A stretch of 47,619 bases of DNA from assembly GCA_018816525.1 (NCBI GenBank), contig JAHIVV010000019.1:1-47619 (forward strand), in the 5' to 3' direction. The stretch is from Elusimicrobiota bacterium (lineage in GTDB: Bacteria; Elusimicrobiota; Endomicrobiia; CG1-02-37-114; XYA2-FULL-39-19). The notes beneath the pieces are model-generated. The model was given only the letters and a program-made list of their open reading frames with translations, did not search any database and was not told the DNA's origin. A program made the translations under genes and the position numbers. Each line of letters starts with the position of its first letter. Position 1 is the first letter of the stretch. Shown here piece after piece: positions 25,859-41,439 of the stretch.

Positions 25859-26893
25859 ATGAAACTCCAATTCATATTAAAAAGCGACATTAACGGTTTT
25901 CTTGACACCCTATCGGTAGACAACAATATTTTCTATCTTACCAAAGACCTGGCCTATAAAATATTTTCGAAAAATGAAACTCCGGAAACCCTAAACATAG
26001 ATGTAATCAGATCCAGCTCGCCTATAAAGATGTTTCTTTTTACCCACAATGAGGAAGCTTCCGCATCAGAGCTGGATGCTGCTTCGCAAAAACCCAATAT
26101 AATTTTTGGCGTAAAATCCTGTGATTTAAACGCTATAAAAGTGCTTGATAACGTATTTTTAAGCGGGGTAGTAGTTGACCCATTCTACGAGAGAAACAGA
26201 CAAAACACTCTTTTGTTCGGAAGCGACTGCCCTGATCCCCAGCATATGTGTTTCTGTTCTTTTATAGGCGACGGCAAGCCATACCCGGACAAAGATCAAA
26301 AACAAACCTATGACTTGAATTTTTCAACTATCGAAGAAGGTTATATTGTAGAAACTGGTTCTGAAGCAGGTGAAAAAATAATGGAGCAGGCCCTGGCTTT
26401 TTTTAAAGATCCTTCCGATGAACAGCTGGGTCAAAGAACAGCTATGCGCGAGCAGTCGTTCAAAAAGCTTGATGAAGTAAATAAAAATTATGCAAAAATT
26501 AAGAACGCCGATTTCCATAACCTGACAAAAACAAAGTTTCTTTCGGAATCCTGGAAAGATTACTGCAAAACCTGCGTGCAATGCACCGGCTGTAACAATA
26601 TCTGCCCGAGCTGTTATTGTTTTTACCTAAACGAACAATCAAAAGAAGGCCATGAATTATTCGAGAAACTGCGTTTATGGGACGCCTGTCATTATACCAC
26701 GCACGGCCGCACTGCCGGCGGAGGAAACTCGAGGCCTAAAGTTTATGAACGTTTCAGAAACAGATACCAGTGCAAATTAAATTACCGCAAAGAAAATTTT
26801 GATTTATACGGCTGTACAGGCTGCGGCAGGTGTTTTGTCGTAAGCCCCTGCAAAATAGATATCAGAAACGTAATCAACGAATTAATGAAATGA
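25859..26893 (+). CDS. Sulfhydrogenase beta / AsrA-like Fe-S subunit
   Basis: The 344-residue protein belongs to the 4Fe-4S dicluster family of sulfhydrogenase HydB and anaerobic sulfite reductase AsrA. NIIFGVKSCDLNAIKVLD and PFYERNRQNTLLFGSDC are the family's N-terminal blocks. Two cluster-binding regions follow: CKTCVQCTGCNNICPSCYCF (about 237-256) and CTGCGRCFVVSPCKID (about 320-336). Family members pass electrons between the flavin subunit and the enzyme core. It overlaps the flavin subunit gene (ATGA) and opens an operon for a membrane hydrogenase, so it probably docks a soluble NAD(P)H module onto the complex. Confidence 0.88.
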   Translation: MKLQFILKSDINGFLDTLSVDNNIFYLTKDLAYKIFSKNETPETLNIDVIRSSSPIKMFLFTHNEEASASELDAASQKPNIIFGVKSCDLNAIKVLDNVFLSGVVVDPFYERNRQNTLLFGSDCPDPQHMCFCSFIGDGKPYPDKDQKQTYDLNFSTIEEGYIVETGSEAGEKIMEQALAFFKDPSDEQLGQRTAMREQSFKKLDEVNKNYAKIKNADFHNLTKTKFLSESWKDYCKTCVQCTGCNNICPSCYCFYLNEQSKEGHELFEKLRLWDACHYTTHGRTAGGGNSRPKVYERFRNRYQCKLNYRKENFDLYGCTGCGRCFVVSPCKIDIRNVINELMK

Positions 26894-27708
26894 ACCCTTA
26901 TCTACCGATAGAAGCCACAGTAGAAAAAGTAATTGACGAAACGTCGTTAATTAAAACTTTTGTATTAAGGCCCAAACAGCCTCTGGCTTTTTCAACAGGC
27001 CAGTTTATTATTTTAAATATTCCTGGTTCCGGGGAATCCGCATTTACGCCATCATCTTCTCCTTTTGTTAAAGACACAATGGAAGTCACAATAATGAAGG
27101 TAGGTACAAATACCGAAAAAATACACAAACTTCAGCCCGGGGATGTTGTAGGTCTGCGGGGCCCCTATGGAAAAGGTTACCCGGTAGAGAAGTTCTATAG
27201 TAAGGAAGTATTGATAATGGGCGGCGGCGTAGGGCTGGCTCCGCTTAGGTCGCTTTTGCTCACTTTAGTTGCCCAGATAAATAAGTTCAAAAAAATAACT
27301 CTCTGCTATGGCACAAAAACGCCGGATGATGTTGTTTATAAATACCTTTTCCCGGCCTGGAAAAAAATAAAAGGCCTTAAAATACAAAGAAGCGTTGACA
27401 AATGCCCGGATAATGCCAGTTGGAATGAAACCGTAGGGCTCGTTACTTGCCTGCTTGATAAAACTTCGGTAGATAAGCAAAATAGCGCGTTAATAGTTTG
27501 CGGGCCGCCGATAATGATGAAATTCACGACTTTAAAACTTTTTCAGCAGGGGTACAAACCTGAAAACATTTATCTGTCGATGGAAAGAAATATGAGCTGC
27601 GGGCTTGGTAAATGCGGGCATTGCGGGGTAGGCCCCCATTATTGTTGTAAAGACGGCCCGGTATTTACTTACGAGCAGTTAAAAGACGAACCGGAAATTT
27701 GGGCATAA
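26890..27708 (+). CDS. Sulfhydrogenase gamma / AsrB-like FAD, NAD(P)H and 2Fe-2S subunit
   Basis: I start the gene at ATG 26890, overlapping the previous stop, giving 272 residues. A longer frame from 26830 would only repeat Fe-S coding bases out of frame. Order: a ferredoxin-reductase FAD domain (about 10-100; FSTGQFIILNIPG), the NAD(P)H domain starting VLIMGGGVGLAPLRSL, and a C-terminal [2Fe-2S] site in SCGLGKCGHCGVGPHYCC followed by KDGPVF. This is the HydG-gamma/AsrB/PyrK-type diaphorase, not the HydG maturase. It should oxidise or reduce NAD(P)H and exchange electrons with the Fe-S subunit upstream. Confidence 0.9.
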   Translation: MNPYLPIEATVEKVIDETSLIKTFVLRPKQPLAFSTGQFIILNIPGSGESAFTPSSSPFVKDTMEVTIMKVGTNTEKIHKLQPGDVVGLRGPYGKGYPVEKFYSKEVLIMGGGVGLAPLRSLLLTLVAQINKFKKITLCYGTKTPDDVVYKYLFPAWKKIKGLKIQRSVDKCPDNASWNETVGLVTCLLDKTSVDKQNSALIVCGPPIMMKFTTLKLFQQGYKPENIYLSMERNMSCGLGKCGHCGVGPHYCCKDGPVFTYEQLKDEPEIWA

Positions 27709-28242
27709 ATGATGAAAAGAATATTGTTAGATATAGAAATTTGCTACAAGTGCAGGACTGATGGAAAAGAATGTTCCGCCTTATGCAGTTATTTCTATCA
27801 TCATACTGAAGGCCTGTTGAAAGAAGAAATAATAAATAACGGAGTAGAAAAACTTTTTGCCAAAGCTGCGCAGTATCTGGTTTGTCGCAGATGCGAAGAA
27901 AAGTTCTGTGTGAACTCATGCCCGCAGGAAGCGCTTGATAAGGACGAGAAAGGTATTTTACAGCGTTATATGATGAAATGCACTTCCTGCAAGACTTGCA
28001 GTATTGCGTGCCCATTCGGAACGATTTATCCCGAAATATTGCCGTACAAATCATCAGGATGTGATTATTGTGCCGGCAGAGCCAACGGCGAGCCGCCGCT
28101 TTGCGTTGAAACCTGCCCTTCAAAGGCGCTTCAATATATAGAAGTAGAAGAATCCAGGGAAAAGAATATATTTGTCATAAATGATTATTTTGCTGTAAAA
28201 GGATTGTCCTGGAATAAGGACGCAAAAGCAGGTGTGCCGTGA
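27709..28242 (+). CDS. Polyferredoxin electron-transfer subunit (HycB/CooF-like)
   Basis: The 177-residue protein has four cysteine groups: CYKCRTDGKECSALC near the start, CRRCEEKFCVNSCP (about 63-76), CTSCKTCSIACPFG (about 91-104) and CDYC…CVETCPSKAL (about 118-140). This is the four-cluster plan of HycB/HydN/CooF proteins that wire redox partners to group 4 hydrogenases. It starts directly after the flavin subunit stop and overlaps the NuoH-like gene (GTGA). It is therefore placed to link the NAD(P)H module with the membrane arm. Confidence 0.88.
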   Translation: MMKRILLDIEICYKCRTDGKECSALCSYFYHHTEGLLKEEIINNGVEKLFAKAAQYLVCRRCEEKFCVNSCPQEALDKDEKGILQRYMMKCTSCKTCSIACPFGTIYPEILPYKSSGCDYCAGRANGEPPLCVETCPSKALQYIEVEESREKNIFVINDYFAVKGLSWNKDAKAGVP

Positions 28243-29147
28243 GAGCATTATATAACATTTTAATTTTCCCGGGTTTTTTATTTGCAGGCATAATGGGGAT
28301 GTTTGCAAGTTATGTAGACAGAAAAGTAAGCGCCAGGGTACAATGGAGAAAAGGCCCGCCGCTTTTCCAGCCGGTTTACGATTTTGTTAAATTGCTCGGG
28401 AAAGAAATAAATGTGCCTGCGGAAACTTCTGCTCTTACATTTTTATCGGCGCCCTTTTTCGGGCTGGCTGCCATTACGCTGGTTTCTACGATTGTCTGGA
28501 ATAATATTATGTCGCCGCAAAGCACTTTTGTGGGGGATTTGATAGCGGTGGTTTATCTGCTTTCTATACCCTCAATTGCCGTGATCATAGGCGGGTTTGC
28601 TTCAAATAATCCCATGGCTTCAATCGGCGCGAGCCGCGAAATGAAATTGATTCTATCTTATGAAATGCCATTTATATTATCAATTCTAGTGCCTGTAATA
28701 AAAGCAGGTAGTATAAGAATTGGCGATATTGTAGCCTATCAGCTCGCAAACGGGGTGTTTTTAGGCTCTGCCGCAGGTATTGTAGCTTTTATATCCGGAA
28801 TTTTATGTGTCCAGGCAAAGCTTTGCGCGGCGCCGTTTGATATTCCTGATGCAGAACAGGAAATAATTGCCGGGCCGGCCATAGAGTATTCGGGGCTGCC
28901 TCTGGGAATTTTCAAGCTTACGAAATGGATGATGCTTTTTGTGATCCCAAGTTTTCTTGTAGCCTTATTCATGCCCGCTGCCACATTTTTTGGCAATGTT
29001 TTAAGGTATATAGCGGTTCTTGTAATAATTATTCTTATTAAAAATACTAACCCCAGGATAAAAATCAACCAGGCTGTGAAGTTTTTCTGGACCTGGGTTA
29101 CCGGCATAGCATTGCTTGCAATAGTCTTGGTTTTATTGGGGTTATAG
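28239..29147 (+). CDS. NuoH/EchB-like membrane subunit of group 4 hydrogenase
   Basis: A 302-residue protein with eight or so membrane helices. The N-terminal block IMGMFASYVDRKVSARVQWR and the KGPPLFQPVYDFVKLLGKE loop are those of NuoH/HycD/MbhM, the subunit that joins the peripheral arm to the pump. IPDAEQEIIAGPAIEYSG is the acidic loop of the family. The GTG start overlaps the previous stop. Confidence 0.93.
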   Translation: MRALYNILIFPGFLFAGIMGMFASYVDRKVSARVQWRKGPPLFQPVYDFVKLLGKEINVPAETSALTFLSAPFFGLAAITLVSTIVWNNIMSPQSTFVGDLIAVVYLLSIPSIAVIIGGFASNNPMASIGASREMKLILSYEMPFILSILVPVIKAGSIRIGDIVAYQLANGVFLGSAAGIVAFISGILCVQAKLCAAPFDIPDAEQEIIAGPAIEYSGLPLGIFKLTKWMMLFVIPSFLVALFMPAATFFGNVLRYIAVLVIIILIKNTNPRIKINQAVKFFWTWVTGIALLAIVLVLLGL

Positions 29148-29153
29148 GATAAA

Positions 29154-29579
29154 ATGAGCAAATTAACTTTAAATGCGCTTACGAAATCTATAAACGTGTT
29201 TCACGCGGCCTGCAGCCCGTGCAATAATTGCGACATAGAAATCCTGGATTGCCTTACACCTAGGTTTGATATTGAAAGATTCGGAATGACTCTTGTAGGA
29301 AGCATCAGGCACGCGGATGCCATGCTGGTTACCGGCGTGCCCAACGTGAAGACGGCAAAAAAAATAAAATACGTCTATGAACAGATGCCCAAGCCGGGTG
29401 TTGTTATTGCCATAGGTTCCTGCGCCTGCGGAGGGAATATGTTCAGGCATTCATATAATTTTGTTAAACCGCTTGATGAAATAATTCCTGTTGATGCGTA
29501 TGTGACGGGTTGCCCGCCCAAACCGGAAGCCATGATAGCGGGGATAGTAAAACTAATAAAGGCGCTGAAAAGCAAATAA
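29154..29579 (+). CDS. NuoB-like small subunit of group 4 [NiFe] hydrogenase
   Basis: The 141 residues match the short small subunits of Ech/Mbh (EchC, MbhJ). They carry one proximal [4Fe-4S] cluster, with ligands in ACSPCNNCDIEIL (Cys20-26), IGSCACGG and VTGCPPKPE. The protein passes electrons between the ferredoxin subunit and the NiFe site. An AGGA SD precedes the ATG. Confidence 0.95.
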   Translation: MSKLTLNALTKSINVFHAACSPCNNCDIEILDCLTPRFDIERFGMTLVGSIRHADAMLVTGVPNVKTAKKIKYVYEQMPKPGVVIAIGSCACGGNMFRHSYNFVKPLDEIIPVDAYVTGCPPKPEAMIAGIVKLIKALKSK

Positions 29580-29580
29580 T

Positions 29581-30012
29581 ATGGAAAGTATTGCGGAAAA
29601 AGTTAAAGAAAAATTTGGCAGTGAAACTGTAAAATACTTCGAAAAAAATGCAAAAAGGCATTATTTTGACGTAGATGCAGGAAGTATTGTAAAACTGACA
29701 AAAATATTATTTCATGGGATGGGTTTTCGTTTTATTACTGCTACGGGTATTCATATTCGCAGCGGTTTTGAAATTCTTTATCATTTCTCTTATGACAAAA
29801 CCGGCGAAGTGGTTACTTTACGGGTATTCTTAAATGAAAAAGAGAAACCGGAAATAGATTCTATCACGCCTCTTTTCGTAGGAGCTGAATGGATTGAAAG
29901 AGAAATGTGCGAAATGCTGGGTATTAATTTCAGAAATCACCCAAACTTAAAAAAATTACTGTTGGATTCATCCTGGCCGGACGGCAAATATCCGCTCAGG
30001 CAGACGGAATAA
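29581..30012 (+). CDS. NuoC-like subunit of group 4 hydrogenase
   Basis: A 143-residue EchD/MbhK/NuoC-type protein. The ending LFVGAEWIEREMCEMLGINF then HPNLKKLLLDSSWPDGKYPL is the family's signature. It has no cofactor and braces the large subunit. It starts one base after the small-subunit stop, with no SD, so translation is probably coupled. Confidence 0.92.
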   Translation: MESIAEKVKEKFGSETVKYFEKNAKRHYFDVDAGSIVKLTKILFHGMGFRFITATGIHIRSGFEILYHFSYDKTGEVVTLRVFLNEKEKPEIDSITPLFVGAEWIEREMCEMLGINFRNHPNLKKLLLDSSWPDGKYPLRQTE

Positions 30013-30019
30013 GGATTTT

Positions 30020-31234
30020 ATGACGGAAGAAAAAAAGAAACAGACTGTTATACCGATAGGGCCCTATCACCCTCTCCAGGAAGAGCCGGAGTTATTCAAG
30101 CTTTATGTTGAAGGGGAAAACGTAACAAAACTTGATATTGAACTGGGGTATAACCATCGCGGTATAGAAAAGCTAGCCGAGAGCAAACATTTTGACCAGG
30201 TCGCTTTTGCGGTAGAAAGAATCTGTGGAATATGCTCGACATCGCATCCGTTTGCTTATGTAAATGCTGTTGAAGACCTTGCAGATATAAAAGTAAACGA
30301 CAGAATAAAATATATCAGGTCAATCATAGGAGAAATGGAACGGTTGCACTCCCATCTACTGTGGCTGGGGCTTGCGGGCCATTTTATCGGCTACAATACT
30401 GTCTGGATGTGGGTTTGGAAGTACAGGGAACCACTGCTTGATTTATTTGAATTTATAACGGGAAACAGGCAGCATTACGCAATGTTTAAAATTGGCGGAG
30501 TGAGGCTTGATATAATTAATGCAGACATTCCAAGAATTATGAAAATGTGCGACGATTTGATTCCTGCCATAGACCTTTTCAAGGGCGCTGTTATGGACGA
30601 CCCTGTAATTCAAGCCCGCGCGAAAGGCGTCGGCACGCTTACAAAACAGGAAGCGATAAATTATTGCGCAGTGGGGCCTATAGCCAGAGCCAGCGGTATA
30701 GATATTGATATTCGTCGGGACAGCCCTTATGCCGCTTATGGCATGGTTAACTGGAAAGTTATCACCAGGCAGAATGGAGATGTTTTTGATAAAATGGTTG
30801 TAAGGATTTTAGAAATGTATGAATCGATCAAGATTATTAAAGGCTGTCTTGAAGGTTTGAAAAAAGAACCTGAAGGTAATTTTGACATGAAAATACAAAC
30901 AATTCCTGCCGGCGAGGGAATAGGCCGCCATGAAGCGCCCCGCGGGGAAGTTTTTCACTATGTGCGCGGCGACGGTTCAAACCGGCCTGTCAGGCATAAA
31001 ATAAGGGCTCCTTCATATATGAATGTAGCTACAAACCAGATAGCCGCAACGCGCGGAACTATCTCAGATGCTGCAATAACGCTCGGCGCTGTTGATCCCT
31101 GTTATTGTTGTACGGAGAGATGTGTTGTTATTGATAAAAAAACAGATAAAAGAATTCTTTCGGGAAAAGATTTGATAAGATTAAGCCAGGAAAAAACCCA
31201 GCAATTAAAGAAGGAATATGGAATTAATAGCTAA
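30020..31234 (+). CDS. Group 4 [NiFe] hydrogenase large subunit
   Basis: A 404-residue NuoD-like catalytic subunit (EchE/MbhL type). Both nickel-binding CxxC pairs are present: RICGICSTSH (Cys69, Cys72) and DPCYCCTER (Cys361, Cys364). This is therefore a true hydrogenase and not a Nuo or Mbx/Mbs relative that has lost them. About 37 residues follow TER, comparable to the tail removed from HycE by its maturation peptidase, so proteolytic maturation is possible. No peptidase gene is in the window. The Mrp genes downstream suggest the Mrp-linked Mbh-type group (4d-like), but the subgroup needs a tree. Confidence 0.96.
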   Translation: MTEEKKKQTVIPIGPYHPLQEEPELFKLYVEGENVTKLDIELGYNHRGIEKLAESKHFDQVAFAVERICGICSTSHPFAYVNAVEDLADIKVNDRIKYIRSIIGEMERLHSHLLWLGLAGHFIGYNTVWMWVWKYREPLLDLFEFITGNRQHYAMFKIGGVRLDIINADIPRIMKMCDDLIPAIDLFKGAVMDDPVIQARAKGVGTLTKQEAINYCAVGPIARASGIDIDIRRDSPYAAYGMVNWKVITRQNGDVFDKMVVRILEMYESIKIIKGCLEGLKKEPEGNFDMKIQTIPAGEGIGRHEAPRGEVFHYVRGDGSNRPVRHKIRAPSYMNVATNQIAATRGTISDAAITLGAVDPCYCCTERCVVIDKKTDKRILSGKDLIRLSQEKTQQLKKEYGINS

Positions 31235-33059
31235 CTTACTGCTTATATCATTTTTATCCGGCGCCCTTTGCCTGCTTTTGCCCAGGAAAAATGATTTTTT
31301 TGTTAAAACAATAGCTGTAACAGCATCGGCAGTATGCCTGCTTTTGGCTTATATGGTTTTCTTGATGCCTATAGCCAATTACCAGTTTTTGAGTTATGAG
31401 CTTTTCAAAATAGACAACTTAAATAAATTCATTGTTTTGGCAATCGGGGTTTTTGGATTTTTAGTTGTTCTTTATTCATTGAAGTATTTCAAAGCAGGTT
31501 CCAGGATGAATATCTATTATGCCTGCATCCTGGGGTCTTTAAGCGCATCCTTCGGCGCTATTCTTTCAAATAATTTTATTCTTTTACTTGTTTTTTGGGG
31601 ATTTTTAGGATTTACGTTATATATGCTCATACAGACCTATCCTTCAGGGAATGCTGCTGCTAAAAAAACTTTTATAATCATCGGCGGTACCGATTGTTTT
31701 ATGATTCTTGGCATAGCAATAATATTTTTCCTTTCCGGCACGATGCAGATAGATAAAATACATCTCTCAACTTTAAACTCTAAACTATCAATTATAGCTT
31801 TCTTGTGCCTTGCATTTGCCGCTTTTGCTAAAGCGGGGGCGATGCCGTTTCATACCTGGATTCCTGATATGGCTGAAGTTTCGCCATCGCCGGTTATAGC
31901 ATTTTTACCTGCGTCTTTGGATAAATTGCTGGGCATTTATTTACTGGCAAGGATTTCATTAAATGTTTTTACCTTAACCCCGGGGCTTTCTATGTTGTTG
32001 ATGCTCATCGGGGTATTTACGATTATCGCCGCAGTTTTTATGGCTATGATTCAGCATGACCTGAAAAGACTTCTTTCCTACCACGCGGTCTCGCAGGTTG
32101 GTTATATGGTATTGGGAATAGGAACAGGGAATCCCATAGGAATAGCAGGCGGAATATTTCATATGTTGAACCATGCAATTTACAAATCCTGCTTATTTTT
32201 GTGCGGCGGTTCGGTTGAACAGAAAACAGGCACCACCGATTTGGATAAACTTGGCGGGCTTGCCTCGCGCGGAAGCATGCCGATAACATTTATAACTTTT
32301 GTTATTGCGTCCCTGTCAATTTCCGGTGTTCCTCCGTTTAACGGATTTGTTTCCAAATGGATGATTTACCAGGGGCTTATAGAAAAACTTATGATTTCAG
32401 GCGGGCGTTTAGCTGTTGTGCTGATTCTCGTAGCGGCCATGTTTGGTTCAGCGCTTACACTAGCCAGTTTTATGAAACTTATTCATGCAATATTTTTCGC
32501 TCAAAAACCCCAAACTGCTCAGACAGGCACGGGAGACGTTTCCTGGCAAATGTGGATACCGCAGGCAGTTTTAGCGCTGCTTTGCGCAGTGTTCGGCGTC
32601 TTCGCTTTTGGTTTTCCGTTAAAGTATTTCATTTTTCCTGCCCTGGCAGCGTTAAATATCCCCGGAGTAACGGCCGGACTGCCGGGACTCTGGCAGCCGG
32701 GGCTTGCGAGCCTGCTAATCATTAGCTGCCTGATTGCCGGCGGATTAATTTACTTATTAAGCAATGCGCTTGGTTCAAAAATAAGGCGGGAGAAAGCTTT
32801 TATCGGGGGTGAAAGCCTGCCGGAAGAAGTAAGAGTTACCGGAGTGGATTTCTACCAGACAATACAAGATATTACTATTTTAAAGAAAATATATGCTTTG
32901 GCCCAAAAGAAGGTTTTTGACATATATGATGTAGGTAAAAGTGTCGTGATAGCAATTGCCCGGGTTTTTTCTGAAATTCATACGGGCAATATGCATATAT
33001 ACCTTGCCTGGAGTGTTTTAGGAATAATAGTTTTATTTTTTATAATAACCGGGCATTAG
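31218..33059 (+). CDS. NuoL/EchA-like ion-pump subunit of the hydrogenase
   Basis: The 613-residue protein has about 14-16 membrane helices. The antiporter core shows KAGAMPFHTWIPDMAEVSPSPV (the key helix), HDLKRLLSYHAVSQVGYMVLG, FHMLNHAIYKSCLFL and ISGVPPFNGFVSKW. The C-terminal extension (FIGGESLPEEVRVTGVDFYQ; EIHTGNMHIYLAWSVLG) is typical of EchA/HyfB-type subunits and not of MrpA. It begins 17 bases inside the large-subunit gene behind an AAGGA SD. It provides one proton or sodium channel in addition to the MrpD-like one downstream. Confidence 0.93.
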   Translation: MELIANLLLISFLSGALCLLLPRKNDFFVKTIAVTASAVCLLLAYMVFLMPIANYQFLSYELFKIDNLNKFIVLAIGVFGFLVVLYSLKYFKAGSRMNIYYACILGSLSASFGAILSNNFILLLVFWGFLGFTLYMLIQTYPSGNAAAKKTFIIIGGTDCFMILGIAIIFFLSGTMQIDKIHLSTLNSKLSIIAFLCLAFAAFAKAGAMPFHTWIPDMAEVSPSPVIAFLPASLDKLLGIYLLARISLNVFTLTPGLSMLLMLIGVFTIIAAVFMAMIQHDLKRLLSYHAVSQVGYMVLGIGTGNPIGIAGGIFHMLNHAIYKSCLFLCGGSVEQKTGTTDLDKLGGLASRGSMPITFITFVIASLSISGVPPFNGFVSKWMIYQGLIEKLMISGGRLAVVLILVAAMFGSALTLASFMKLIHAIFFAQKPQTAQTGTGDVSWQMWIPQAVLALLCAVFGVFAFGFPLKYFIFPALAALNIPGVTAGLPGLWQPGLASLLIISCLIAGGLIYLLSNALGSKIRREKAFIGGESLPEEVRVTGVDFYQTIQDITILKKIYALAQKKVFDIYDVGKSVVIAIARVFSEIHTGNMHIYLAWSVLGIIVLFFIITGH

Positions 33060-33068
33060 GAATCACTT

Positions 33069-33596
33069 ATGATACAGATTCAGGTTTTACTTGTATTTAT
33101 GATTATCGCAGCAGCTATTGCCATAGGCACATCGGATTTGCTGGGCGCTGTTGTTTCAATCGGCGCTGTTGGGCTCGGGCTTGCTATTGTATTTCTCCTT
33201 CTTCAATCGCCTGACCTTGCAATACTGCAGCTTGTCGTTGAAATTTTATCGCTGGTTATTCTTATACGCGCTGTCGGTATAAAAGATACGGTAAATGTAA
33301 GAGAAAGAAGATTCATTGCCACTTCTATAAGCGTTATACTTATGGGGCTTTTTCTTGTTTTTGCCAGCCTGGCTATTTTGGAAATTCCAAAATTCGGGAA
33401 CCCGGCCATGAAACTCAGCTTTTTGTATTTAAAAGACGGGTTCAGGCAGACAGGAGTTCCTAACATCGTATCTGCAATAATGCTCGATTACCGGTCGTTT
33501 GATATGCTTGCGCAAATTGTAATTGCTTTTACCGCAGCTATAGGCGTTGTTGTTATTGCCAGGAAGAAAATATACGTAAATAAGGATAAAAAATGA
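33069..33596 (+). CDS. MbhD-MbhE-like protein (MrpA C-terminal region)
   Basis: A 175-residue membrane protein equivalent to the C-terminal part of MrpA. Residues 1-75 match the MbhD/DUF4040 type (LLGAVVSIGAVGLGLAIVFL then LQSPDLAILQLVVE). Residues about 80-170 match MbhE (NIVSAIMLDYRSFDMLAQIVI). In Pyrococcus Mbh these are two separate proteins; here they are one. The SD is AGGA. Confidence 0.85.
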   Translation: MIQIQVLLVFMIIAAAIAIGTSDLLGAVVSIGAVGLGLAIVFLLLQSPDLAILQLVVEILSLVILIRAVGIKDTVNVRERRFIATSISVILMGLFLVFASLAILEIPKFGNPAMKLSFLYLKDGFRQTGVPNIVSAIMLDYRSFDMLAQIVIAFTAAIGVVVIARKKIYVNKDKK

Positions 33597-34078
33597 TAAA
33601 GAAACCCGCCCAGGGAATGACCCTTATTGTAAAAACCATAACCCGGTACACCGTAGTGCTAATATTGATGTTCGGCATGTATTTCATTATGAACGGACAC
33701 CTGGTACACGGCGGATGTTTTGCCGGCGGTATAATAGTTGCGCTCTCAATTATCCATATAATGCTTGCTTTTGGTAAAGATGTCGCTTTCAAAAGAATAA
33801 CTGAAAGAGCCATAAAGCTTTGTATCGGGCTGGGGGCGTTTTCATTTTTATTGCTGGGGATAATTGGTTTCACTAAGGGAGCCTTCTTATATAATTTTTT
33901 CCGGAAACCCGGAGTTGATTACATAGGGCAGCCTTTTTCGCTTTTTAGTTCCGGCATAATGCCTTTGATGAACCTGGCAATATCTCTTACTGTTGCGTCA
34001 GGATTTTGCGCGATATTTTTAGCCTTAATAGTTTATAAACCGGGCGGCGGAGATAAGAACACTGGGAGGAAACTGTGA
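33593..34078 (+). CDS. MrpB/MnhB-like antiporter subunit
   Basis: A 161-residue membrane protein with the MnhB block GMYFIMNGHLVHGGCFAGGI and four helices; it corresponds to MbhF. It overlaps the previous gene by four bases and has an AAGGA SD. Confidence 0.9.
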   Translation: MIKKPAQGMTLIVKTITRYTVVLILMFGMYFIMNGHLVHGGCFAGGIIVALSIIHIMLAFGKDVAFKRITERAIKLCIGLGAFSFLLLGIIGFTKGAFLYNFFRKPGVDYIGQPFSLFSSGIMPLMNLAISLTVASGFCAIFLALIVYKPGGGDKNTGRKL

Positions 34079-34419
34079 CGGAATATTTTTTATGTTTGGT
34101 ATTATTTTGCCTCGGGCTTTATGCGATACTGATAAAAAGGAACCTGATTAAAATAATAATAGGGCTTGCGATAATGGAATATGCAGTGAACCTTTTTTTC
34201 ATTCTTATAGGTTATAAAAATAGCGGGACTGTGCCGATATTTTCTTCGCTGAAAGAGCCCCGCCCGGAGATTATGGTTGACCCGGTTGTGCAGACAATAA
34301 TTCTTACAAATGTCGTTATAGGGCTTGCTATAACATTTGTACTTGTGTTAATTGCAATGCGCATTTACGAAAAATACGGTACTTATGATATAAGAAAAGT
34401 GAACCGTTTAAAAGGATAA
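34075..34419 (+). CDS. MrpC/MnhC-like (NuoK-like) antiporter subunit
   Basis: The 114-residue protein has three helices; IGLAIMEYAVNLFFILIGY and DPVVQTIILTNVVIGLAITF are typical of MrpC/MbhG, the NuoK relative. GTG start overlapping the previous stop, SD GGAGG. Confidence 0.93.
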   Translation: MTEYFLCLVLFCLGLYAILIKRNLIKIIIGLAIMEYAVNLFFILIGYKNSGTVPIFSSLKEPRPEIMVDPVVQTIILTNVVIGLAITFVLVLIAMRIYEKYGTYDIRKVNRLKG

Positions 34420-34429
34420 CGTCAACAAA

Positions 34430-35881
34430 ATGTTAACGCTTTTTATTATTTTGCCTCTTTGCGGCGCATTTATAATATTTCTTGCTGGGAAATATTCAAA
34501 ACATATCAGCTATTTTATGGGATGGTTTATTCCCGCAATTCTTAGTATATTGTCAATTAAATTATTGTTGGCAAAAGAAGTTTTTACTTATAATATCGGC
34601 GGCTGGGCGCCGCCATTGGGCATAACTCTTGTCGGTGACGGTTTGAGCCTTCTTTTCCTTGCCGTTGTTAACGTGGTTGTTCTCATGGCTGCGATTTATT
34701 CCATCCCTTATATAGAAAAATATACTTCAAAATGGATTTATTTTGCGTTATTTCTGGTTATGCACGCAAGTATGAACGCTGCGCTGCTTACCGGGGATAT
34801 TTTTAATCTTTTTGTCTGGATAGAAATAGGCGGAATAGCATCTTATATACTTGTGTCATATGTAGTTGAGCCGGAACAGCTTGAAGCGTCGTTTAAATAT
34901 GCGGTTTTGAGCAGTGTCGGTTTGCTCATGGTTCTATTAGGAATAGGCCTGCTTTACGCATACGCCTCAACTCTAAATATGGCTGATATTGCCCGGGTGC
35001 TTTCTGCAAAGCCGAATCCTAAACTTATTAATTTTATTGTGGTTCTTTTTATTGTCGGGTTTGGGACTAAAGCGGCTATTGTGCCTTTTCACGCCTGGCT
35101 GCCGGACGCCCATTCTTCGGCGCCATCGCCGATTTCAGCGCTTCTTTCTGGAGTGCTGATTAAATCATTGGGAGTATATGCCCTTATCAGGGTTCTGTTT
35201 AACGTAATAGGAATGAATGCTCAATTAAAAGAAGTTATAATTGTTCTTGGATGTATTTCAATGGTTGTAGGGGTACTGCTCGCTTTTTACCAGTGGGATT
35301 TCAAACGGCTGCTGGCATATCATTCCATAAGCCAGATAGGCTATATATTATTAGGTATAGGGTTAGGGACACCGCTTGGTATTCTGGGCGGTTTGTTTCA
35401 CCTGGTAAATCATAGTGTTTTTAAAAGCCTGCTGTTTTTAAATGCAGGCGCAGTAGAATATTCAACAGGCACGCGTGATTTGAAACAATTGGGCGGGCTT
35501 TCCGGCAAGATGCCTATAACGGGCAGTACGAGTTTAATAGCCTCTATGTCAATCGCGGGGATTCCTCCCTTCAACGGATTTTGGTCAAAATTTATAATAA
35601 TTTTCGCCTGTATTCAGGCGGGAAAATTCTGGCTGGGGTTCATTGCGGTTGTTGTAAGCCTGCTGACCTTGTCAAGTTTTTTAAAAGTGCAAAAATACGC
35701 TTTTTTTGGCGAGCTAAAAGAACAGTGGAAAGAATTGAAAGAAGTTCCCTGGTTAATGTGCTTGTCAATGATCATACTGTCTTTAATGTGTATTGGTTTT
35801 GGTTTATTGCTCGTGCCTGCTATAAGGTCATTTGTGTTTGACCCGGCGGTTAGTGTCTTGCTTAACGGGATAAAAATATGA
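34430..35881 (+). CDS. MrpD/MnhD-like antiporter subunit
   Basis: A 483-residue protein with about 14 helices. Core motifs are KAAIVPFHAWLPDAHSSAPS, WDFKRLLAYHSISQIGYILL, FHLVNHSVFKSLLFL and IAGIPPFNGFWSKF. It is the MbhH/MrpD pump subunit, second of the two large antiporter-like subunits in this operon. It has a distant AAAGGA SD and an ATGA overlap with mrpE. Confidence 0.94.
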   Translation: MLTLFIILPLCGAFIIFLAGKYSKHISYFMGWFIPAILSILSIKLLLAKEVFTYNIGGWAPPLGITLVGDGLSLLFLAVVNVVVLMAAIYSIPYIEKYTSKWIYFALFLVMHASMNAALLTGDIFNLFVWIEIGGIASYILVSYVVEPEQLEASFKYAVLSSVGLLMVLLGIGLLYAYASTLNMADIARVLSAKPNPKLINFIVVLFIVGFGTKAAIVPFHAWLPDAHSSAPSPISALLSGVLIKSLGVYALIRVLFNVIGMNAQLKEVIIVLGCISMVVGVLLAFYQWDFKRLLAYHSISQIGYILLGIGLGTPLGILGGLFHLVNHSVFKSLLFLNAGAVEYSTGTRDLKQLGGLSGKMPITGSTSLIASMSIAGIPPFNGFWSKFIIIFACIQAGKFWLGFIAVVVSLLTLSSFLKVQKYAFFGELKEQWKELKEVPWLMCLSMIILSLMCIGFGLLLVPAIRSFVFDPAVSVLLNGIKI

Positions 35882-36372
35882 AAAGCAGAATACTTTCATT
35901 CATTCTTGCATTTGCGTGGTGGCTGGCGCTAACCTGGTCGCTTAATTGGCAATTTGTTCTTGTAGGTTTGTTGGTTAGTTTATTCATTGCCTGGGCTGTG
36001 GGCGATTTGTTTATTCGCAATCCCTGGAAATTGAAACAACCCAGAAGGTATATTTGGGCAGTTTACTACCTTTTAATTTTTTTCTGGGAGATGATAAAAG
36101 GCAATATCGACGGCGCATACAGGATTCTTCATCCGAATTTACCGATAAATCCCGGGATAGTAAAAATTAGAACCAAACTCAAAAGCGATGCGGCGCTTAC
36201 ATACCTGGCAAACACAATAACACTAACACCAGGAACGTTCACAATTGATGTGGACAGCGAAAATGGATTTCTTTATGTGCATTGGATGAACGTGGTTACT
36301 CAGGATATAGAAGAAGCTACTAAAATTATAATAGGAAAGTACGAACCAATATTAGAAAAAATATTCGAATAG
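35878..36372 (+). CDS. MrpE/MnhE-like antiporter subunit
   Basis: A 164-residue protein with two N-terminal helices (FAWWLALTWSLNWQFVLVGL) and a cytoplasmic domain whose core (LTYLANTITLTPGTFTIDVD) is the MnhE signature. It corresponds to MbhA. In Pyrococcus mbhA leads the operon; here it follows mrpD as in true Mrp operons. Confidence 0.93.
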   Translation: MKSRILSFILAFAWWLALTWSLNWQFVLVGLLVSLFIAWAVGDLFIRNPWKLKQPRRYIWAVYYLLIFFWEMIKGNIDGAYRILHPNLPINPGIVKIRTKLKSDAALTYLANTITLTPGTFTIDVDSENGFLYVHWMNVVTQDIEEATKIIIGKYEPILEKIFE

Positions 36373-36395
36373 CATTGGGTGTAAAGAAGGAAGTA

Positions 36396-36731
36396 ATGAG
36401 ATTTTTTAAATGGTTTATAGGTTTACTAGTTTTGGGTGCTTATATATATTTTAATTTCACCATGGAATTATCAGGGTTCTTGCGGGCTATCAATCTGTTG
36501 TTGCCTTCATGTTTTATGTGTCTCTGGAGAATTTATAAAGGCCCTACTCCGGCGGACCGTGTTGTTGCAATAGATATTTTGGGTGTTCTGGTGATCGGTT
36601 TTTGCGGAATTATGACCGTATTCACAAAAAGGACATTTTTTATTGAAATAGCTATCGCCTGGGCTCTTCAGTCTTTCATTGCCACTATAGCTTTAGCAAA
36701 ATTCTTAGAGGGGAAAAGCTTCGATGATTGA
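36396..36731 (+). CDS. MrpF/MnhF-like antiporter subunit
   Basis: A 111-residue protein with three helices and the family loop RIYKGPTPADRVVAIDILGV (MbhB). I take ATG 36396 as the start because AAGGA sits five bases before it. The TTG at 36375 would add seven polar residues and has no SD. Confidence 0.9.
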   Translation: MRFFKWFIGLLVLGAYIYFNFTMELSGFLRAINLLLPSCFMCLWRIYKGPTPADRVVAIDILGVLVIGFCGIMTVFTKRTFFIEIAIAWALQSFIATIALAKFLEGKSFDD

Positions 36732-37053
36732 AATAATAGGTTATGTGTTTATAGGAATAGGAATATTGTTTGATTTTATCGGCTGCCTGGGGCTGGTGCG
36801 ACTGCCGGACCTTTATAACAGGCTTCATGCATCAATAAAATGCGTGACGTTCGGCACTTGCGGCATTATGGTTGGTGTTTTTGTAATACACGGATTCAAC
36901 GATGTAGGAATAAAAGCGTTATTTTGCGCTGTGTTTTTACTTTTAACTGCACCGGTTTCAGCTCATGCAATTTCCCGCGCAGCACATCTTTCCGGGGTAA
37001 AACAATGGGAAAAAACTGTTTGCGATAAATACGAAGAAGATAAAACAAAATGA
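36724..37053 (+). CDS. MrpG/MnhG-like antiporter subunit
   Basis: A 109-residue protein with three helices; GCLGLVRLPDLYNRLHASIK and LLTAPVSAHAISRAAH are MrpG hallmarks (MbhC). It overlaps mrpF by eight bases with SD GAGGGG, and overlaps the ferredoxin gene by ATGA. Confidence 0.94.
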   Translation: MIEIIGYVFIGIGILFDFIGCLGLVRLPDLYNRLHASIKCVTFGTCGIMVGVFVIHGFNDVGIKALFCAVFLLLTAPVSAHAISRAAHLSGVKQWEKTVCDKYEEDKTK

Positions 37054-37661
37054 AATACCCAAAATTAAGAGAATTAGGGGAAGCAATTAAGGCGGTTTTT
37101 AAGGGTCCCTATACCAATCGGTTTCCTTACGAACCCCATACTCCCGAAAAACGCTTCAGGGGAAAACCTATCCCAAACGAAAAAGGCTGTATCGGTTGCG
37201 GCGCCTGCGCGGAAGTGTGCCCGGCAAACGCTATTGAAGTGCTAAATGAAAACAATAAACGCAAAGTTATCTGGCATTATGACCTCTGTATTTTTTGCGC
37301 GCAATGCGAAAGGCTTTGCACTACCCAGGAAGGGGTGAAACTTTCAAATACGGAATATGACCTTTCGGTTTTTGACAGGAAAACGCTCTTTTCAGAAGTT
37401 GAAAAAGAACTGCTTATATGCCAGAAATGCGGTGAAATAATCGCTCCGGTTGACCAGCTGCTTTGGACTGCCAAAAAACTCGGGCCTATGGCTTATGGCA
37501 ACTATGTTTTATTAACAAACCTTCAGCAGCAATTAGGCGTCAGCCAAAACAATATCCCAAACCCGGATATTAAGGGCACTTCCCGTGCCGATTTATTCAA
37601 GTTATCCTGCCCCAAATGCCGCCGTGCCGTTCATCTTTTCGATGAATACGGCATAAAGTAA
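37050..37661 (+). CDS. NuoI-like ferredoxin subunit with C-terminal zinc-ribbon-like motif
   Basis: The 203-residue protein holds two [4Fe-4S] sites, CIGCGACAEVCPANAI (about 47-62) and CIFCAQCERLC (about 80-90), as in MbhN/EchF/HycF, which take electrons from ferredoxin. The second half adds two CxxC pairs, ICQKCGE (about 123-129) and SCPKCRR (about 186-192), able to hold a zinc or another metal. HycF-type proteins can carry such a tail. It closes the hydrogenase operon. Confidence 0.92.
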   Translation: MKYPKLRELGEAIKAVFKGPYTNRFPYEPHTPEKRFRGKPIPNEKGCIGCGACAEVCPANAIEVLNENNKRKVIWHYDLCIFCAQCERLCTTQEGVKLSNTEYDLSVFDRKTLFSEVEKELLICQKCGEIIAPVDQLLWTAKKLGPMAYGNYVLLTNLQQQLGVSQNNIPNPDIKGTSRADLFKLSCPKCRRAVHLFDEYGIK

Positions 37662-37821
37662 CCCTTCAGAAAATAACCAGGAATTTGCCCATGGTAACAA
37701 TTTTGTAATACGTTTCATTGAAAACCCGCTTTATATTTTGTAAAATATTACTCAATTCACCTGTAGCTACGGGATGTTTCGTGCCTCTAGTACTAATTAT
37801 TTCTTTACGGATGCAGTAAAC

Positions 37822-38031
37822 ATGAAAATAAAAACAATCAATAAAAATGGGCAGAAAATGTTTTTTGGGACAGGCACGCACGAAGAAGTTGAATCTTTAA
37901 ATATAGCGAAAGATTTTGAAACTGCTCTAGTTATATTAGCAAAGATAAGAAAGAGGAGAAAGAATTTTTTTGAATCTAAGGATTCTGAAGAGATAAACAG
38001 GTCTTCGTATGGTACAAGAAAAGCAGGTTGA
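37822..38031 (+). CDS. Small partner protein of the nucleotidyltransferase
   Basis: The likely start is ATG 37822, giving 69 mostly charged residues (MKIKTINKNGQKMFFGTGTH at the start). Upstream codons from 37774 look non-coding. I do not recognise the family. It overlaps the following nucleotidyltransferase gene by 23 bases, the layout of small two-gene modules, so it may be a cognate regulator. The 160 bases before it (37662-37821) hold no convincing gene. Confidence 0.5.
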   Translation: MKIKTINKNGQKMFFGTGTHEEVESLNIAKDFETALVILAKIRKRRKNFFESKDSEEINRSSYGTRKAG

Positions 38032-38473
38032 GAACGATTATAGAGAATTTATAGAGCTTCTTAATAAAAACAAGGTTGATTACCTTGTTATCGGTGCCTA
38101 TTCCACTATATTTCACACAAAAATACCCAGAGAAACCCAGGATATTGATTTTTGGATTAGGAAAACAGAAGCTAACGCTGAAAAATGCGTAAAAGCAATA
38201 AAGGAATTCTGCGGGATTGAAATTGGCAGGGAAACATTATTAGGAGATAAAGAGATATTTTTTATCGGTCAGGAGCCGAATAGGATAGATATTTTTAATA
38301 CTCAAAAAGGGCTGTCTTTTGAAGAGGCCTATTCTCATAAAGAAATCGGAACTTTTAAGGGGACACAGGTATGTTTTGTTTCGAAAAAGGATTTGATCAG
38401 ATTGAAGGAATATTTTGGACGAAATAAAGATATTAAAGATTTAAAAAGGTTGAAAAAGTCAAAGAAAAAGTAG
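38009..38473 (+). CDS. Nucleotidyltransferase-fold protein
   Basis: A 154-residue protein. YLVIGAYSTIFHTKIPRETQ followed by DIDFWI is the core of a minimal nucleotidyltransferase of the DUF6036/AbiEii-like type: GG-like turn, then D-I-D metal ligands. The usual GG is GA here. Such proteins occur in toxin-antitoxin and accessory modules, often modifying tRNA or a partner protein. With its small upstream partner it interrupts the run from hydrogenase structural genes to maturation genes, so it may be a late insertion. Confidence 0.7.
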   Translation: MVQEKQVENDYREFIELLNKNKVDYLVIGAYSTIFHTKIPRETQDIDFWIRKTEANAEKCVKAIKEFCGIEIGRETLLGDKEIFFIGQEPNRIDIFNTQKGLSFEEAYSHKEIGTFKGTQVCFVSKKDLIRLKEYFGRNKDIKDLKRLKKSKKK

Positions 38474-38522: not shown

Positions 38523-38873
38523 ATGCATGAAACCGGTATAGCAAGAGATCTTTTTGAAAAAATAAAAGCTGAAGCCGCCAGGAACTCGCTTAAAAAAATA
38601 ACGAAAATTGTTATTAAAAACGGCGAAGCCAGCGGTATCCTGGAAGATTTATTAAGGCACAGCTTTATTGACCATATTTTCCCGGGAACGATAGCCGAAA
38701 ACGCTGAATTAGAGATTATCGTTGAAAACTTATCCGCAAAATGCAGCCGGTGCGGCGGGGAAATAACAACCCATAACATCGGGTTGCAAGGGTGCCCTCA
38801 ATGCAAGAGCAAAAATATAGATATTTTATTCGGTAAAGATGTTTACATAGACAGCATTTCAGGTGAAAAATGA
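38523..38873 (+). CDS. hypA: HypA, [NiFe]-hydrogenase nickel chaperone
   Basis: The 116-residue protein begins MHE (His2 and Glu3 bind nickel) and carries the zinc site Cys74, Cys77, Cys91 and Cys94 (CSRCGG…CPQCKS). HypA with HypB delivers nickel to the large subunit. It is the right partner for the group 4 hydrogenase upstream. It overlaps hydG by ATGA, which ties a [NiFe] factor to an [FeFe] maturase in one transcript. Confidence 0.92.
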   Translation: MHETGIARDLFEKIKAEAARNSLKKITKIVIKNGEASGILEDLLRHSFIDHIFPGTIAENAELEIIVENLSAKCSRCGGEITTHNIGLQGCPQCKSKNIDILFGKDVYIDSISGEK

Positions 38874-40246
38874 GTCAAAAGATAATCGATGAATCGTTGA
38901 TTAATGGGATATTAAATAAAACCCAAAAACCATCTTCGAGCAAGATACGCAAAATCCTCAAAAAAGCTTCTCAGAAAAACGGATTAACGCTTGATGATGC
39001 CGGCTATCTTGTTAATCTTAAAGACCGAAGGCTAATTAAAGAGTTATTCAAAGTTGCTTCCAATATTAAAAATGAAATTTACGGGGAAAGGCTGGTTTTC
39101 TTTGCGCCTCTTTATATTTCAGATTATTGCGTTAATGACTGCCAATACTGCAATTTCCATAAAGAAAATAAGGAATTTAAGCGTAAAAGATTATCATTCG
39201 ATGAAATTGGCGAGCAGGTAAAACACTTAATAAATACCGGGCATAAAAGGGTTCTGCTTGAGCTGGGCGAAGATCCGGATAACAACACGATTGATTACGT
39301 AGTTAAAGCCATTGAAAAAATATATTCAGTAAAAACGCCCAAAGGAAATATCCGCCGGATAAATGTGAACATTGCGGCAACAACCGTAGAAAATTACCGC
39401 AGATTAAAGGAAGCAAAAATAGGCACCTATCAGCTTTTTCAGGAAACCTACCGCCGCGAAACATTTAATAAGCTTCACCAGGGCCCGAAAGCTGATTATG
39501 ACAGGCAGGTAACCGCGCATACAAGAGCGTTCAAGGCCGGAATTGACGACGTAGGGCTGGGTGTTCTATTTGGTTTATATGACTGGCGTTTTGAAGTTTT
39601 AGGATTAATTTCTCACTCAAAGTACCTTGATAAACAATATGGAGTAGGCCCGCACACAATTTCTGTGCCCAGGTTCAGGCCGGCGCCGGGTGTAACCTAT
39701 AAGCCGGAATATAAAGTATCTGATAATGATTTCTTGAAACTAATTGCAATCCTAAGATTAGCTGTCCCTTATACAGGAATGATAATCAGCACCCGGGAAA
39801 GCGCGCAAATCAGGAAGAAAGCTTTCCAGATAGGCATTTCTCAGGCTTCCGCCGCGTCAGTTACTGTTGTAGGCGGTTATGGGAAAGGAAAACTTAACGG
39901 CCAGTTTGAGATTTCTGATGAACGCCCTTTAAAAGAAGTTATAAAAAATATTTTGAAAGATAAATTATTGCCCAGTTTTTGCACGGCCTGTTACCGCCTG
40001 GGCAGGACCGGCGAACATTTTATGGAGTTATCCAAACCGGGCGAAATACATAAATTCTGCCGCCCCAACGGTTTGCTTACATTCGCCGAGTATCTTGAAG
40101 ACTTCGCCAAAACTAACGGGACTTATAAATTAGGCAATAAGGTTATAAAACATTACTTGGAAAAAATAGAAAATAGAGGTATGCGTGATGAAGTAAAAGA
40201 GAAGCTGGAAAAAATACTAAAAGGCGAGCGCGACCTTTATTTTTAA
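38870..40246 (+). CDS. hydG: HydG radical SAM tyrosine lyase
   Basis: The 458-residue protein has the radical SAM cluster CVNDCQYC (Cys87, Cys91, Cys94) and the C-terminal auxiliary cluster in the HydG spacing CX2CX22C (Cys371, Cys374, Cys397). Other HydG blocks are LFQETYRRETFNKLHQGPKA, YGVGPHTISVPRFRPAPGV and SRESAQ-like STRESAQIRK. HydG splits tyrosine and releases CO and CN- bound to an iron synthon. The second Cys triplet marks it as HydG and not ThiH, which lacks the auxiliary cluster. No [FeFe] hydrogenase or HydF is in the window. Confidence 0.92.
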   Translation: MSQKIIDESLINGILNKTQKPSSSKIRKILKKASQKNGLTLDDAGYLVNLKDRRLIKELFKVASNIKNEIYGERLVFFAPLYISDYCVNDCQYCNFHKENKEFKRKRLSFDEIGEQVKHLINTGHKRVLLELGEDPDNNTIDYVVKAIEKIYSVKTPKGNIRRINVNIAATTVENYRRLKEAKIGTYQLFQETYRRETFNKLHQGPKADYDRQVTAHTRAFKAGIDDVGLGVLFGLYDWRFEVLGLISHSKYLDKQYGVGPHTISVPRFRPAPGVTYKPEYKVSDNDFLKLIAILRLAVPYTGMIISTRESAQIRKKAFQIGISQASAASVTVVGGYGKGKLNGQFEISDERPLKEVIKNILKDKLLPSFCTACYRLGRTGEHFMELSKPGEIHKFCRPNGLLTFAEYLEDFAKTNGTYKLGNKVIKHYLEKIENRGMRDEVKEKLEKILKGERDLYF

Positions 40247-40260
40247 ACAGGTGTGAAACA

Positions 40261-41439
40261 ATGTGTTATGCAATTCCCGGAAAAGTAGTAGAAATAAACG
40301 ATAAAACAGTCACTGTGGAATATTTCGGCGAAAAAAGAAAAGCCAGAAATGAGTTCTATGACCTCAAACTGGGCGAATATATCTATGCCCAGGGCGGTTT
40401 TGTAATACAGCGCATGTCCGAAAGGGAAGCCCTGCCGGTATTGGAATCCTGGAAGGAACTTTTCTTTGAATTACAGGAAATAGATGCAAAACTGGCAAAA
40501 AATACAAAAAGCTTGTTTGATAAAGCCAATGCAGTGCGCCATAAACACCTGGGCAACGCATGCTGTGTTCACGGAATAATAGAATTCTCAAATTACTGCA
40601 AAAATAACTGCGCTTACTGCGGGTTGAGAAAAGACAATGCAAAAATTGAACGTTACAGGATGAGCGTTGATGAAATAGTAGAAACTGCTGAAAATGCAAT
40701 CAATAAACTTGGTTTTAAAGCGCTTGTTTTACAGTCAGGCGAGGATGATTTATATACGGACGAAAAACTTGTTGAAATCGTAAAACGGATAATGTCAAAA
40801 TCGCCCATTCTTTTAATTTTAAGCCTTGGTGAACGAATCCGGGAAACCTATCAAAAGCTTTACAAAGAAGGCGCCAGGGGAGTTCTTTTAAGGTTTGAAA
40901 CAAGTAATCCGGAGTTATTCAAAAAACTAAAACCTGAAAGTGATTATGATAAAAGAATTGAGTTGATAAAGAACTTGAGGGATATGGGATACCTGATTTT
41001 TACGGGTTTTCTTGTCGGCCTTCCGGGACAGGAAGAAGCAGATTTGATAAATGATATAGAACTTACTAACTCTCCTGGTACTGATATGTTTTCGTTCGGA
41101 CCATTTATACCGCATCCCCAGACGCCGCTTGCAGATGCTAAATTGCCTACAATGGATATTGTCTTAACAGCAATTGCCCGCGCAAGAATACTGAATCCTG
41201 AAGCAAAAATACTGGTTACCACGGCAATGGAAACGCTGGATAAAGAAAATGGAGCAAAATTGGGATTGATGTCCGGCGGAAATTCATTGATGATAAACCT
41301 GACTCCGCAAAAATACAGAAAATATTATGAAATTTACCCGGATCGTGCCGGCACAAACAAGGAGGCAGCAAAACAGGTTGAAGAAACTCTTGAATTGCTG
41401 CGCTTGATCGGAAGGGCGCCGACCGATTTGGGAATATGA
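40261..41439 (+). CDS. HypC-HydE fusion protein
   Basis: The protein has 392 residues. Residues 1 to about 75 are a HypC/HupF chaperone: MCYAIPGKVVEI with the essential Cys2, then YFGEKRKARNEFYDLKLGEY. The conserved His of the HVGFA block is Gln44 here (AQGGFV). Residues about 85-392 are HydE: GIIEFSNYCKNNCAYCGLRK (radical SAM Cys113, Cys117, Cys120), ERYRMSVDEIVE, VLQSGEDD, FLVGLPGQ, and GPFIPHPQTPLA. HypC carries the Fe(CN)2CO unit for [NiFe] sites; HydE processes the HydG-made iron synthon for [FeFe] sites. One polypeptide joins both roles. The frame is continuous and the SD (AGGTG) precedes HypC's ATG, so the fusion is real in this sequence. Confidence 0.9.
   Translation: MCYAIPGKVVEINDKTVTVEYFGEKRKARNEFYDLKLGEYIYAQGGFVIQRMSEREALPVLESWKELFFELQEIDAKLAKNTKSLFDKANAVRHKHLGNACCVHGIIEFSNYCKNNCAYCGLRKDNAKIERYRMSVDEIVETAENAINKLGFKALVLQSGEDDLYTDEKLVEIVKRIMSKSPILLILSLGERIRETYQKLYKEGARGVLLRFETSNPELFKKLKPESDYDKRIELIKNLRDMGYLIFTGFLVGLPGQEEADLINDIELTNSPGTDMFSFGPFIPHPQTPLADAKLPTMDIVLTAIARARILNPEAKILVTTAMETLDKENGAKLGLMSGGNSLMINLTPQKYRKYYEIYPDRAGTNKEAAKQVEETLELLRLIGRAPTDLGI

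Follow-up and report, generated by a model that had tools for sequence, protein, structure and literature searches.

A HypC-HydE fusion protein and HydG point to an alternative assembly line for the [NiFe] hydrogenase iron site

Introduction

The closest described systems are HypABCDEF, for [NiFe] hydrogenases, and HydEFG, for [FeFe] hydrogenases. In the former, HypC, whose residue Cys2 is essential, delivers the iron unit to the large subunit (PMC9002611; PMC12134894), and in E. coli the contact between HypC and HypD is supported by a conserved HypC histidine (PMC9002611). In the latter, HydG splits tyrosine into CO and CN and assembles Fe(CO)2(CN)Cys; this complex is transferred straight to HydE, where a SAM radical reaction reduces it (PMC12752695). 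According to a 2025 review, the source of CO under anoxic conditions is still open (PMC12134894).

Here we describe a locus in an Elusimicrobiota genome (contig JAHIVV010000019.1; the analysed stretch of 47,619 nucleotides is hereafter the window) that can be set beside both systems. It resembles HypABCDEF in its HypC domain with Cys2, HypA, a HycI-type protease and a [NiFe] large subunit as the target, but HypD, HypE and HypF are missing, HypC is joined to HydE and the histidine that contacts HypD is lost. It shares with HydEFG the presence of HydG and of a radical SAM domain from the HydE family, whereas HydF and HydA are absent from most genomes that carry it and its HydE bears an attached HypC domain as well as a new Cys-Cys-x-His motif. 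The aerobic HypX uses formyl-THF as substrate and provides only CO, alongside HypCDEF; the system described here would resemble it in having a CO source dedicated to the assembly of [NiFe] enzymes, but the source that we propose is HydG with tyrosine.

Results

One protein joins a HypC domain to a HydE domain

The fusion is encoded on the forward strand by a single uninterrupted open reading frame with an ATG start (40261-41439, 392 amino acids), which begins 14 nt after the stop codon of hydG. Residues 1-63 (40261-40449) match the Pfam family HupF_HypC (PF01455) with an E value of 1e-13 and 51.7 bits, above the cut-off of 28.5, and fall slightly below that of the NCBIfam HypC subfamily TIGR00074 (45.1 against 48). 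Residues 75-384 (40483-41412) exceed the cut-off of the NCBIfam HydE equivalog TIGR03956 (E value 4e-82, 276.1 bits against 254.6). These matches confirm the initial annotation, which had placed HypC and HydE in one protein. Both Pfam domains were matched in all 64 aligned fusion members, and an AlphaFold2 model of the fusion, with 64 relatives as input, reached a mean pLDDT of 94.3 and a pTM of 0.92; a Foldseek search with this model returned HydE of T. maritima (PDB 7o1o, 3ciw) as top matches.

The family counts at least 80 relatives: scanning one genome per species gave 123, of which 80 were kept. In all 80, the match begins where the HypC domain begins; it reaches residue 390-392 in nearly all, and two end at contig ends. 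Because these database relatives share the join, a frameshift, an assembly join or a chance origin of the fusion is ruled out. The fusions fall into two length classes (loci L011-L090), one of about 392 amino acids, to which that of the window belongs, and one of about 430, in which about 40 added residues between HypC and HydE resemble the usual N-terminal helices of HydE.

Both halves carry invariant residue changes

The residues singled out in the initial annotation, namely Cys2, a glutamine (Gln44) in place of the HypC histidine and a CX3CX2C motif at C113, C117 and C120, are all found in the sequence. The Met-Cys-Tyr start that includes Cys2 (40264-40266), Gln44 (40390-40392) and the CX3CX2C radical SAM cluster motif (40597-40620) are invariant in 81/81 fusion sequences. 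The conserved HypC histidine near residue 50, which contacts HypD, is thus missing from every fusion; in stand-alone HypC proteins of the window's phylum, a histidine occupies the Gln44 position in 29 of 29 readable sequences. This change at the HypD contact site fits the absence of HypD described below.

The HydE half shares with T. maritima HydE its fold, the CX3CX2C motif and most pocket residues, the equivalents of R159, E161, R180, T268, Y303 and Y306 being nearly or fully invariant in the fusions. It differs from that enzyme in its N-terminal HypC domain, in the auxiliary cluster cysteines (CX7CX2C), all of which the window protein lacks, and in a fusion-specific C101-C102-x-H104 (40561-40572), which replaces V51-H52-x-R54, with C101, C102 and H104 standing for V51, H52 and R54. 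C101 is present in 80 of the 81 fusion sequences, and C102 and H104 in all 81; the canonical HydE sequences compared (n = 5) have arginine at the R54 position and no cysteine pair. In the AlphaFold2 model, the Cys-Cys-x-His motif lies on the first barrel strand, beta-1 (residues 100-110), and C102, H104, I106, E108 and S110 share one face, which we infer from the alternation of residues along a strand to be the one towards the lumen.

The fusion lies downstream of HydG, HypA and a group 4 [NiFe] hydrogenase

Upstream of the fusion, all on its strand, the window holds a group 4 hydrogenase/Mrp operon followed by HypA and HydG. The membrane-bound hydrogenase/Mrp-antiporter operon (25859-37661) has electron-input, NuoH-like, antiporter and ferredoxin subunits, with a [NiFe] small subunit at 29154-29579 (PF01058) and a group 4 large subunit at 30020-31234, which has two CxxC motifs (ERICGIC and DPCYCC) and is extended at its C-terminus by about 40 amino acids. 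Then come a HypA-like nickel chaperone (38523-38873; PF01155, 9.8e-25) and HydG, the tyrosine lyase making CO and CN (38870-40246; TIGR03955, 542 bits), which is close to HydG of T. italicus (4wcx) and has both its CX3CX2C and its C-terminal CX2CX22C cluster motifs. An 85-amino-acid open reading frame and a DUF2204-type nucleotidyltransferase (37774-38470) separate hypA from the ferredoxin gene of the hydrogenase; though inside the operon, these look unrelated to hydrogenase.

The host genome (1.6 Mb, 98.6% complete) has no HypC other than the fusion, and a family-model search gave no HypD, HypE, HypF, HydA or HydF above the family cut-offs. Another contig (L173:4495-5721) encodes a second [NiFe] large subunit, likewise of group 4 type and with both CxxC motifs (ERICGIC and DPCVCC), and the genome's only match to a HycI-type protease is near it.

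HydG lies within 400 bp of the fusion, co-oriented and on either side, in 46 of the 80 loci, and many loci without a nearby HydG stop at a contig end. The HydG reading frames found carry CX3CX2C in 52/52 cases and CX2CX22C in 45/52. Hydrogenase structural genes, recognised by the window proteins, occur in 48 of the 80 loci, and in 36 loci there is a large subunit in which both CxxC motifs are present. Such neighbouring large subunits are of two types: one with DPCYCC-TER, like the group 4 enzyme of the window, and one with DPCISC-H beside NAD-binding and ferredoxin subunits, which by gene arrangement is group 3-like. With two types near it, the fusion seems to act for [NiFe] enzymes of more than one class. 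No further gene accompanying the fusion was seen when looked for with the window genes only.

HydG is constant and HypD, HypE and HypF are absent where the fusion occurs

Co-occurrence was assessed in 51 fusion genomes, that of the window and 50 others. Most are metagenome-assembled genomes (MAGs), so a single gene absence is weak evidence, but an absence from all 51 is not. HydG is present in every one. With the known family models, HypD, HypE and HypF each reach the cut-off in 0/51: matches to the HypE model (85-112 bits) stay below half of its cut-off, and those to the HypF model are short and partial, each covering just its N-terminal, its middle or its C-terminal portion, and far under the cut-off. 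HydA occurs in five of the genomes and HydF in four, leaving 46 without HydA and 47 without HydF; in the remaining genomes, the HydF model yields only GTPase-domain matches far under its cut-off. A [NiFe] large subunit is present in 49/51, with 48 found by the window query and one, Mvh-like and missed by that query, in G035; in the other two (G046 and G055), none was found in the search or on the contigs examined. The HycI protease is present in 47/51. The case that would have refuted the initial annotation, with HydA and HydF always alongside the fusion and never [NiFe] alone, did not materialise.

The same relationship is visible within the window's phylum. Among 295 genomes surveyed, 98 have HypD above the cut-off and all 98 have a stand-alone HypC, and HypC without HypD occurs in seven, six being fusions and the seventh a HypC truncated at a contig end and adjoining hydG. 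The family f5 holds both states, with a fusion and no HypD in G006, and HypC and HypD in G009, G012, G014 and G016. Fusion and HypD are mutually exclusive in this phylum. In four HypD-bearing genomes (G278, G312, G264 and G325), HypC matches lie within open frames of 284-641 amino acids, which could be other HypC fusions or merely long open frames.

All four genomes with both HydA and HydF (G048, G052, G062 and G067) possess, in addition, an ordinary HydE that lacks HypC, located near HydG or HydF in each; in G048 and G067, it was located by tblastn with HydE of other genomes as queries. A separate ordinary HydE in all four means that the fusion is an additional protein even beside [FeFe] maturation, and in G062 and G067 a [NiFe] large subunit adjoins it. 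In these genomes (L174, L175, L177 and L179), ordinary HydE and fusion are accompanied by one HydG above the cut-off, which would then serve two maturation lines.

The fusion is spread across phyla as one group

Relatives come from bins labelled Omnitrophota, Elusimicrobiota, Margulisiibacteriota/Saganbacteria/WOR-1, WOR-3, Planctomycetota, Lentisphaerae, Desantisbacteria, Spirochaetota, Nitrospirae, Micrarchaeota and Woesearchaeota, thus including DPANN-labelled bins. A tree places the HydE domains of the fusions in a single group on a long branch, separate from three ordinary HydE (support 100/100), and phyla are intermixed inside it. In a bin labelled Nitrospirae, a single open reading frame of 943 amino acids (L071:10001-12829) reads HypC-HydE-HydG, with a full HydG.

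Discussion

The genomic replacement of HypD, HypE and HypF by HydG and the fusion is well supported. We consider it likely, with no biochemistry to draw on, that HydG and the fusion form an alternative assembly line for the [NiFe] iron site in place of HypC, HypD, HypE and HypF. In its full form, this would be a second natural route in which HydG and HypC-HydE replace HypCDEF, CO and both cyanides come from tyrosine, and the iron unit travels within one protein, out of the HydE barrel and on to HypC; we favour this version too, with less assurance. The chemistry of the route, the second cyanide above all, is inferred.

In such a line, HydG would cleave tyrosine and form an Fe-CO/CN-cysteine synthon, which would enter the HydE barrel, where radical SAM chemistry would release the iron unit from cysteine. 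This substrate and the order of steps are inferred, as is the role of the invariant Cys-Cys-x-His on strand beta-1 (perhaps Cys102 and His104), which probably holds the iron. Cys2 of the tethered HypC domain could accept the unit and insert it into the apo large subunit, after which HypA may aid the addition of nickel and a HycI-type protease may then trim the C-terminus of the large subunit; since HypA and proteases of the HycI type are retained, these two last steps look conventional. The HydG synthon has two CO and one CN, whereas the [NiFe] iron has one CO but two CN; a ligand exchange or a second cyanide step must therefore be assumed. The second CN might come from a second HydG turnover or from ligand exchange between two synthons, and the final set of one CO and two CN is likewise inferred; otherwise, the iron site of these [NiFe] enzymes differs from Fe(CN)2CO.

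The initial annotation had proposed that the fusion hands an iron-CO/CN unit derived from HydG and HydE to [NiFe] maturation. Its link to [NiFe] enzymes stands (large subunit in 49/51, HydG in 51/51, HypD, HypE and HypF in 0/51), and the chemical hand-over remains an inference. The implied binding of the HypC domain to HypD drops out: with HypD absent it is not required, and the change from histidine to glutamine fits this.

Other readings of the same data have to be weighed. The CO:CN ratio of the HydG synthon is wrong for the [NiFe] site (PMC12752695), which leaves room for HydG and the fusion giving only CO, or an Fe-CO unit, while both cyanides come from an unrecognised enzyme replacing HypE and HypF; the absences of HypD, HypE and HypF do rest on known family models. 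We nevertheless think this improbable, as HydG itself already produces cyanide, all three proteins are absent in 51/51 and no companion gene was seen with window genes as the sole probes. Ligand exchange would be unnecessary if the mature enzymes carried other diatomics, for example Fe(CO)2(CN) taken directly from the synthon, which is exactly what HydG and HydE handle (PMC12752695). The large subunits, however, retain the standard four-cysteine motifs, and the 2025 review describes [NiFe] hydrogenases with Fe(CN)2CO throughout (PMC12134894); we give this possibility little credence.

The HydE domain might instead have been repurposed, for example for iron loading or a redox role, with HydG alone making the unit that HypC carries. 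Such a change of function would suit the new Cys-Cys-x-His motif, the window protein's lack of an auxiliary CX7CX2C cluster and the long branch from ordinary HydE, but the radical SAM motif and the equivalents of R159, E161, R180, T268, Y303 and Y306 are nearly or fully invariant, and we rate it a shade lower still. Hardly tenable is a role of the HydE half in assembling the [FeFe] H-cluster, with the HypC half a passenger or a linker of two ordinary pathways. Although the domain fits the [FeFe] maturation family model, HydA and HydF are too scarce (missing from 46 and 47 of the 51 genomes), the four genomes with both own a separate ordinary HydE, and the ordinary [NiFe] branch, HypD, HypE and HypF, is absent; a function of the fusion in [FeFe] maturation is thereby contradicted.

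We return to HydG and the fusion as a [NiFe] assembly line. Searches of 5.4 million open-access papers, with preprints and most subscription journals outside their scope, turned up neither a HypC-HydE protein, in agreement with the initial annotation, which knew of no described fusion, nor [NiFe] maturation without HypD, HypE and HypF. Within that scope, the assembly line as a whole is undescribed, and every part comes from a known family. The fusion, the constant HydG and the missing standard genes in many uncultured anaerobes point to a second, undescribed route to the [NiFe] active site. If this is true, the CO question would be answered for these lineages, two worlds of hydrogenase maturation would be joined and a smaller gene set would be at hand for producing [NiFe] enzymes; widespread lineages would retain [NiFe] hydrogenases with HydG and HydE-HypC instead of HypD, HypE and HypF.
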